Assembly: GCA_019359615.1 (NCBI GenBank)
Contig: JAHHHA010000003.1
Span: 62,001 to 126,000 of the forward strand
Source of the DNA: Cyanosarcina radialis HA8281-LM2
Lineage (GTDB): Bacteria; Cyanobacteriota; Cyanobacteriia; Cyanobacteriales; CCAP-1448
DNA length: 64,000 nt
Direction of reading: 5' to 3'
The position numbers and the translations under genes were made by a program. Within the stretch, counting starts at the first letter, position 1; every line of letters begins with the position of its first letter. This document shows positions 16,205 to 37,819 of the stretch, piece after piece. The notes beneath the pieces were generated by a model that had not been told where the DNA came from, searched no databases, and saw nothing but the letters and a program-made list of their open reading frames with translations.

Positions 16205-16684
16205 ATGGCACAGCTAAAAGTCACAGTCCCAGAAAACTCACAAAATATCTTGGGTATCGTCACGATCGATGCTGCTTTAGAAAAAGTATTCGAGGCATAT
16301 ACCAAAGAAGAACTCTTTGCCAAATGGTGGTGTCGCGGCAATCCGATGAAAGTATATCGCTTTGATTGCCAAGACGGCGGGAGTTGGCATATTGCAGAGC
16401 AGTCAGAAGATGGGAATGAGTATGAATTTATTGGCTGTTTTCACGAAGTAGCCCCAAATAAACGCATCGTGCAGACGTTTGAATTCTTGGGGATGCCAGA
16501 ACGCGGACACGTCATGTTGGAAAAAGCCGAATTTGTGGCCGTTGACGCACATACGACTGAGATTCATACCCATAGCACTGCCATGAGCCAAGAAGACCGA
16601 GACGGCATGGTCGCCAGTGGAATGGAAAGCGGCTGGCGGCAGTCGATCGAAGCTCTTGGCAAGCTGCTAAGAGCGGGCAACTAA
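16205..16684 (+). CDS. AHSA1/SRPBCC domain protein
   Basis: 159 residues of the SRPBCC (START-like) fold, AHSA1 subgroup: IDAALEKVFEAYTKEELFAKWW near the N-terminus, GGSWHI and HEVAPNKRIVQTFEF in the middle, and GMESGWRQSIEALGKLL at the end. ATG 16205 is preceded by a GGAGGAGG ribosome site (16189-16196), and the longer upstream frame overlaps the ArsR gene in another frame. Members bind hydrophobic ligands; paired with an ArsR-type gene they are often part of a small stress or ligand-response unit. The ligand is unknown. Confidence 0.87.
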   Translation: MAQLKVTVPENSQNILGIVTIDAALEKVFEAYTKEELFAKWWCRGNPMKVYRFDCQDGGSWHIAEQSEDGNEYEFIGCFHEVAPNKRIVQTFEFLGMPERGHVMLEKAEFVAVDAHTTEIHTHSTAMSQEDRDGMVASGMESGWRQSIEALGKLLRAGN

Positions 16685-16892
16685 CTCTAGCTCGCTCTGT
16701 CGGAAGATCGGCTATTCGTGGAAGTTGACAAAGGCGATCGCATCGTTCATTTGCTGTTTGCCGTTGCCTTCATCTGGGTAGGGCGAAGAAGCATATCAGC
16801 CCAAACCAGGTAATCCATGCAGTTTCGTTGAAGGCTAGGTCCGCGAAGCTCCAGCGTTTGGTAGCCCTGCCGATTCCTTCCAGCGTCATGTG

Positions 16893-17380
16893 ATACCAAA
16901 TCCGCTTCTCATACCCCCCAATCCAGCCCCTTTCAAGGGTATGTTTTTGAGATTTGGGGTAGTTCTGGAGCAGGGGATGCAGGGGGAGCAGGGGAAGAAA
17001 AGCCATGGTTTTCGTCGTCTACTCATCGCTCACAGAGCCAATTTTTAAAAACATACACCTGTAAGCAATCCAGCCCTCACCCCCAACCCCTCTCCCAAGG
17101 GAGCTACCGTGTATACATAAGTTATCGATTTGCCGTTTCACACTAAGATCCCCCTAAATCCCCCTTAAAAAGGGGGACTTTGATAACTTCCCCCTGCTTG
17201 GTGCCAGCTGCACAGCGAGGGAACCTCGCCGCAACTCCCCCCCTTTTTAAGGGGGGCTAGGGGGGATCTAATGCAGGGCCTCCAAGTTTTCCCACAGATG
17301 TGTATACACGGTAGCCCAAGGGAGAGGGGAGCCGGAGGCTCCTTTGAGGGAAAGTAGGTTTTGGCAACCGGATTTGGTAT
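16893..17380. mobile_element. MITE-like element with ATACCAAATCCG terminal inverted repeats
   Basis: Perfect 12-base inverted repeats ATACCAAATCCG (16893-16904) and CGGATTTGGTAT (17369-17380) bound a 488-base gene-free stretch. It includes a GCAGGGG-type tandem run and the CCTCTCCC...GGGAGAGG palindrome, and that palindrome is split by a second element (17104-17314). A smaller copy with related ends lies at 37715-37819. No transposase is encoded. Confidence 0.6.
17104..17314. mobile_element. 211-bp MITE with perfect TIRs and 10-bp target duplication
   Basis: Left end CTACCGTGTATACA (17104-17117) and right end TGTATACACGGTAG (17301-17314) are perfect 14-base inverted repeats. They are flanked on both sides by the same 10 bases, CCCAAGGGAG (17094-17103 and 17315-17324). 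Removing the element and one flank restores CCTCTCCCAAGGGAGAGGGG, a palindrome that occurs elsewhere in the window. Inside is a second inverted pair built on GATCCCCCTAAATCCCCCTT. No coding capacity is seen. Confidence 0.88.
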
Positions 17381-17395
17381 GAAAGGAGGAAAGTC

Positions 17396-17794
17396 ATGAA
17401 CGAACCAGCAAACCAGCAATTGGTGCAACAGGCGTATCAAAGTGTCGGAGCAGGTGATGTTCGATCGCTTTTGAATTCTCTGGCAGAAGATGTGCGGTGG
17501 CAACTGCCCGAAATGGAAAACGTACCGTTTGCCGGAACGTGGCACGGACGGGAACGAGTCGAACAATTCTTCAGCACGGTTGCCCAAGCGCAAGATGTCA
17601 TCGAATTCGAGCCGGAGGACTTTATCGCCCAAGACGACAAAGTAGTGGTTTTGGGTCGTTTCTCTCACCGCGTCAGATCTACGGGCAAAGTTTCCACCTC
17701 ACCTTGGGCGCACGTTTGGACTCTCAAAGATGGCAAAGTCACCCATTTTTATGAATACGTAGACACCGCCGCCGTCAGCAGAGCATACACCTGA
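17396..17794 (+). CDS. NTF2/SnoaL-like protein
   Basis: 132 residues of the SnoaL-like/ketosteroid-isomerase-related fold: QQAYQSVGAGDVRSLLNSLAEDVRWQLP, then GTWHGRERVEQFF and a C-terminal WTLKDGKVTHFYEYVDTAAV. Members may be hydrolases, isomerases or small ligand binders; here the activity is unknown. An AAGGAGG-type ribosome site is 6 bases before ATG 17396. It starts 15 bases after the MITE end and may depend on a promoter within or near that element. Confidence 0.85.
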   Translation: MNEPANQQLVQQAYQSVGAGDVRSLLNSLAEDVRWQLPEMENVPFAGTWHGRERVEQFFSTVAQAQDVIEFEPEDFIAQDDKVVVLGRFSHRVRSTGKVSTSPWAHVWTLKDGKVTHFYEYVDTAAVSRAYT

Positions 17795-17925
17795 CCCCAG
17801 GACGATTAACGGCAGCCTTATCTGTTTGACTTTTGACTTCCGCACAGGAGAATTTATTCGGAGCGATCGCATTTCTTTTATACGAGAAAGCGATCGCTCG
17901 TTTATCTCTGTCAATTATTTTGCTT

Positions 17926-37714: not shown

Positions 37715-37819
37715 ATATCAAATCCGGTTCTTAAACTCCCGATCTAGCCCTCACCCCCTTCGGCAGAGCTTCAGGGGGGCGGGCGAGGAAAACCTGGTTT
37801 TGCTAACCGGATTTAATAT
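37715..37819. mobile_element. 105-base MITE-like repeat with ATATCAAATCCGGTT ends
   Basis: ATATCAAATCCGGTT (37715-37729) and AACCGGATTTAATAT (37805-37819) are inverted repeats with 14 of 15 matches. Inside are AGCCCTCACCCC and GGGCGAGGAAAACCTGG-like stretches, as in the larger element at 16893. Its right end touches the sphS stop codon (37819-37821). Confidence 0.65.

Follow-up and report, generated by a model that had tools for sequence, protein, structure and literature searches.

Tn5 transposase is the tagmentation enzyme, and its choice of target is commonly regarded as close to random. IS50/Tn5 is placed in the IS50 subgroup of the IS4 family, for which ends of the form CW------Y---CA-A--W-, a size of 1350-1550 bp and direct repeats of 8-9 bp have been tabulated (PMC2266710). 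Targeting of repetitive extragenic palindromes (REPs) is already known for several IS families, including the IS4 family through ISRm22, copies of which are inserted in such palindromes in Sinorhizobium meliloti (PMC1525189); ISRm22 belongs to subgroup IS4Sa, and its conserved target arms have been remarked on (PMC2266710). ISPsy8, for its part, goes into a predicted REP hairpin at its axis of symmetry (PMC1525189).

Here we describe a locus of Cyanosarcina radialis HA8281-LM2, within a window of 64,000 nucleotides (the whole stretch of DNA analysed), in which a MITE with IS50-subgroup-type ends interrupts a palindrome of an older element. It differs from ISRm22, which is autonomous, is described from one host and falls in another subgroup (ends CA, not CT), and from ISPsy8 and other REP-targeting ISs of the IS3 and IS110 families, which have other transposase families (and, for ISPsy8, a 3-bp duplication). 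The closest named element that we met is ISSysp3, an IS4-like element on plasmid pAQ7 of Picosynechococcus sp. PCC 7002; unlike the MITE it is autonomous, and the single copy that we scored (5/9 pairs) lacks a clear palindrome around it. A limited literature search found no earlier description of the MITE family, its IS50-subgroup ends, a palindrome-dependent duplication length or a recurrence across several phyla.

Structure of the nested locus

The segment 16893-17380 is a composite of an outer MITE-like element and two younger insertions. One of these, the 211-bp MITE recognized in an earlier note on this DNA, lies at 17104-17314, is non-coding and has perfect terminal inverted repeats, CTACCGTGTATACA and TGTATACACGGTAG (14/14), as that note had stated. 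Its 19-bp ends, CTACCGTGTATACATAAGT (17104-17122, plus strand) and CTACCGTGTATACACATCT (17296-17314, minus strand), both fit the IS50-subgroup end consensus (PMC2266710). The 10-bp target duplication proposed there is also borne out, with CCCAAGGGAG exact at 17094-17103 and 17315-17324, and so is the splitting of a palindrome by the insertion: the left part, CCCCTCTCCCAAGGGAG (17087-17103), includes the left duplication, the right part, CCCAAGGGAGAGGGG (17315-17329), includes the right one, and excising the insert restores CCCCTCTCCC(aa)GGGAGAGGGG. The interior contains a hairpin repeat, GATCCCCC...GGGGGATC (17146-17269, inverted repeat I2), whose arms at 17146-17176 and 17239-17269 are 87% complementary, and the fold of the whole 211 bp has z = -5.8. 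Short length, 14-bp perfect inverted repeats, a target duplication, dispersed copies and the lack of a transposase frame are together those of a MITE.

A genome-wide search for the 14-bp ends, suggested as a check in the earlier note, returned many further copies. The 14-mer occurs exactly 63 times in the 6.5-Mb genome and 109 times at no more than one mismatch, against 3 for a reversed-pattern control, and its abundance is therefore not due to chance; these and the other genome-wide counts are based on pattern searches and retrieved loci. Two more full-length copies, on contigs C7 and C21, have a reported identity of 100% (with a slightly lower score for C21), and several others are 93-98% identical, which points to recent movement of the MITE. 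One variant (G000:C3:115719-115934, G000 being the own genome) contains in its interior an intact CTCTCCCNNGGGAGAG palindrome (115756-115771), which is the preferred target and could receive a further nested insertion.

The outer element runs from ATACCAAATCCG (16893-16904) to CGGATTTGGTAT (17369-17380), both exact. It was correctly described as a larger unit enclosing a MITE, but it carries two insertions rather than one: a different MITE of 136 bp, absent from the earlier account though within the same outer element, occupies 16930-17065, with ends CTTTCAAGGGTATGTTTTT / AAAAACATACACCTGTAAG (inverted repeat I4) and an 11-bp target duplication, CAATCCAGCCC, at 16919-16929 on the left and 17066-17076 on the right. 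The length of the composite sums exactly, 488 bp being 120 bp (outer element) plus 147 bp (136 + 11) plus 221 bp (211 + 10). A search with joined flanks retrieved from the own genome many copies of the outer element that are not interrupted, among them locus L231 (G000:C6:85725-85844), which spans ATACCAAATCCG to CGGATTTGGTAT in exactly 120 bp and has CTCTCCCTTGGGAGAG intact. Given these unfilled paralogues and the exact sum of lengths, the outer element is older and both inner insertions came later. The order of events can thus be read, as had been claimed, for outer before inner, but not between the two inner insertions. The unfilled sites are paralogues in the own genome and do not represent this locus in a sister strain; among the relatives searched for an orthologous empty site there was no genome of the same genus, and the downstream SnoaL-like gene, with a counterpart in only one other of these genomes (41% identity), gave no usable synteny.

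The 136-bp family has about ten separate copies in the own genome, mostly of 136-145 bp, several of which bear their own 11-bp duplications (for example L222, L224, L225 and L229). Some of its copies likewise lie in palindromes (L224, L225, L232).

The outer element sits between the SnoaL-like gene and genes for an AHSA1-like protein and an ArsR-type regulator, and ends just ahead of the GGAGG of the former gene, 15 bp short of its start codon (window 17381-17396). Ends resembling ATACCAAATCCG occur elsewhere in the window (1979, 32688, 37715-37819 and 63578; 15 matches at no more than two mismatches versus 5.2 expected), and 37715-37819 resembles a further short element of the outer family. 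In another outer-element copy (L236, G000:C28:23043-23128) the ends are altered symmetrically, to ATCCCAAATCCG / CGGATTTGGGAT, giving GATC at both junctions. Rfam gave no match over 16500-17800.

A probable partner transposase related to Tn5

A transposase with matching ends, which the earlier note had named as a further check, does exist, in another genome. Among 80 relatives searched, the exact 14-mer end is present in 10 other genomes, and a Chamaesiphon MAG (G072) carries a 1482-bp IS (L131/L160) with ends CTACCGTGTATACACAAGT / CTACGGTGTATACACAAGT, one of which is identical to the left 19-bp end of the MITE at 18 of 19 positions. The L131 contig contains both IS ends and starts 2 bp before one of them, so that the target duplication of this copy is unreadable. 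The reading frame encodes 461 aa of an IS4-family transposase (NCBIfam NF033590, E 3.1e-105) that is related over about 370 aa to the Tn5 transposase of solved structure (E 7.5e-29); the YREK motif YRWRWRIEQLFATLK (Y..R...E......K) is present and DREADI is visible. With its end CTACCGTGTATACACAAGT and its size, the IS conforms to the published table for the IS50 subgroup (PMC2266710). It thus resembles IS50/Tn5 in end consensus, YREK motif and transposase homology, whereas the published duplication of 8-9 bp (PMC2266710) contrasts with the 9-12 bp and palindrome-dependent register described below. The ISSysp3 transposase is 62% identical to that of the partner IS, and ISSysp3 has ends CTACTGTGTACACACAAGT and a 10-bp duplication; the ISEc13 end in L214, CTGTCTCTTATACACAAGT, shares TATACACAAGT with the partner IS.

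The MITE has its ends in common with this autonomous IS; beyond them, MITE interiors and the IS have nothing recognizable in common. Because the ends are shared, we infer that the MITE was mobilized in trans by an IS of the L131 type, and the 211-bp element is probably driven by a relative of Tn5 transposase. The own assembly yielded no intact partner transposase; it contains decayed remnants of such a gene on G000:C31, with one IS end adjoining, and has contig breaks at several of the MITE/IS-type ends. The DDE_Tnp_1 transposases of the own genome (L101-L104) were considered as partners, and none has matching ends; the Tn5 N-terminal domain PF14706 had no match in this genome.

Target choice in the own genome

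For 40 distinct MITE insertions of the own genome, the target site was rebuilt and scored by the highest number of pairs that two 9-bp arms close to its centre could form. At least 8 of 9 arm pairs were found at 28 of the 40 sites, compared with 0.95% of random positions within the same loci, 1.5% of positions 45-160 bp from the insertions and 1.9% of intergenic positions. The other 12 sites fell below this score, and the preference is hence not absolute. Such insertion into dispersed extragenic palindromes, far above chance, is the behaviour of a REP-targeting IS. Of the commonest palindrome type, CTCTCCN2-7GGAGAG, 255 intact examples are available in the genome.

The position of the cuts follows the palindrome. 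Among sites with exact duplications, all ten with CTCTCCT arms and a 3-nt loop have 9-bp duplications centred on the palindrome, and all six with CTCTCCC arms and a 2-nt loop, of which the 211-bp copy in the window is one, have 10-bp duplications, with cuts 4 bp and 6 bp from the centre. Duplications of 11 or 12 bp occur at a few sites whose arms differ or whose loops are longer. Over all exact MITE sites, duplications of 9 bp (11 sites), 10 bp (14), 11 bp (2), 12 bp (1) and 7 bp (1) were counted, and related ISs have 9-11 bp; these lengths are inside the IS4-family range and partly beyond the 8-9 bp published for the IS50 subgroup. There is strong evidence, then, for a preference for two-fold symmetric sequence with register-locked cuts. 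Of the hairpin-targeting preference suggested in the earlier note, the preference for palindromes stands (28/40 versus 1-2% of control positions), while the geometry is mildly contrary to an extruded hairpin.

At four loci of the own genome the arms of the two duplications match but the loops differ: TT/AA in L002 and TGT/ACA in L090, each pair being reverse complements, CGC/ACA in L083 and GT/AA in L085. A locus in a Legionella MAG (L163) shows the same pattern. Simple insertion does not yield matching arms with differing loops; possible sources are loop inversion and ectopic recombination between copies lodged in similar palindromes.

Relatives in other genomes and plasmids

For the relatives we scored 42 sites, in other genomes and in plasmids, at which the ends of an IS copy had been called. 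A few of these calls, made automatically, are weak, that in L191 being probably wrong, and the set contains some near-duplicates (L187 and L196). Of the 42 sites, 17 reached 8 of 9 arm pairs or better, versus 0.84% of controls; over half did not, among them the ISSysp3 copy (L199) and a copy from Spirosoma (L165). Arm sequences vary by host: in Spirosoma fluviale, for example, the arms are GTGTCAGGTC/GACCTGACAC, in Sinorhizobium fredii NGR234 they are CCCTCTCCCCGC/GCGGGGAGAGGG, and an ISVa18 copy in Vibrio has terminator-like arms, AAAAGGGAGC/GCTCCCTTTT. When half-sites were swapped among the 29 exact-duplication sites of the own and related genomes, the true half-sites out-paired the swapped ones in 1000 of 1000 shuffles (mean 7.14 versus 6.18, largest shuffle 6.68), a result in favour of a recognition of symmetry that goes further than a common consensus. 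In a tree of 27 transposases, elements that target palindromes did not group apart from the others: both main groups contained high as well as low scores. Given these mixed scores and the number of sites below 8/9, we do not claim a palindrome rule for the whole group. Two elements that are near Tn5 by their ends, ISVa18 on the Vibrio cholerae plasmid pW7G (L213) and ISEc13 on an Escherichia fergusonii plasmid (L214), lie in terminator-like hairpins.

Discussion

Based on the above data, we propose that 17104-17314 is a non-autonomous MITE of the IS50 subgroup that was moved in trans and inserted across the centre of a palindrome in an older outer element, a reading to which we give a probability of about 0.85. 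In the proposed mechanism, the MITE would carry only the 19-bp ends of a Tn5-like IS4-family element, which are predicted to be bound by the transposase. The enzyme, supplied in trans and in this assembly represented only by a decayed remnant, would have moved the MITE by a Tn5-like cut-and-paste reaction. The strand-transfer complex, itself symmetric, would favour targets that are two-fold symmetric and GC-rich or GC-edged, and insertion would take place across the centre of dispersed palindromic repeats with a stagger of 9-12 bp. Cuts would fall at a fixed distance from the palindrome centre, 4.5/4.5 bp for a 3-nt loop (9-bp duplication) and 4/6 or 6/4 bp for a 2-nt loop (10-bp duplication). 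In the window, the target would have been the palindrome of the 120-bp outer element, which also received the 136-bp MITE.

What the transposase recognizes in these targets could be read differently. It might recognize a stem-loop extruded from supercoiled or lagging-strand DNA, rather than symmetric linear sequence; the arms differ in sequence between hosts and still pair, and relatives also reside in terminator-like hairpins (L213, L214), as would be expected if a hairpin or cruciform were the target. The same statistics are, however, predicted by symmetry alone, and the 9-10-bp stagger places the duplication across the palindrome centre. A full cruciform would moreover place the cut points in different hairpins, an arrangement that on geometric grounds is ill-suited to Tn5-like transfer, so that we consider extrusion unlikely and the palindrome to be recognized, by inference, as a symmetric duplex. 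Palindromes might also play no part in recognition if a short GC-edged core (CC-N5-GG) were favoured and the surviving insertions were those in non-coding repeats, palindromic only by coincidence. Weak symmetric cores are a known feature of Tn5-type enzymes, CC..GG edges occur in most of the duplications, and the insertion sites are in repeat-rich DNA. Yet only 6 of 44 intergenic CCN5GG cores are palindromic, against 28 of 40 insertions, the pairing exceeds that of swapped half-sites and the cut register tracks loop size, which together make a core preference on its own quite improbable.

Another alternative dispenses with transposition and has the 211-bp unit spread by recombination or copying along with the palindromic repeats. 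Some copies do have mismatched flanks, as from ectopic recombination, but exact duplications, nearly all of 9-12 bp, at 29 copies in the own and related genomes largely exclude such a route; unfilled paralogues exist, and the ends are common to a transposase-bearing IS. We therefore regard it as scarcely credible and retain the insertion of a Tn5-like MITE across a palindrome centre.

A wider proposal can be advanced only tentatively, and may well not hold: that the IS50 subgroup has widespread lineages whose transposases read about 20 bp of two-fold symmetry irrespective of arm sequence, with a palindrome-set cut register, and for which REPs and terminators are harmless landing sites across phyla. 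If only the conservative reading is true, the locus documents a cyanobacterial MITE family that is ordinary in kind and whose history is unusually clear. With unfilled paralogues that are clean and cut positions that are fixed, target choice can be tested directly. Landing in palindromes would explain how the elements multiply without hitting genes, and relatives of Tn5 that land there at a fixed register would show how this class of enzyme tightens its choice of target.
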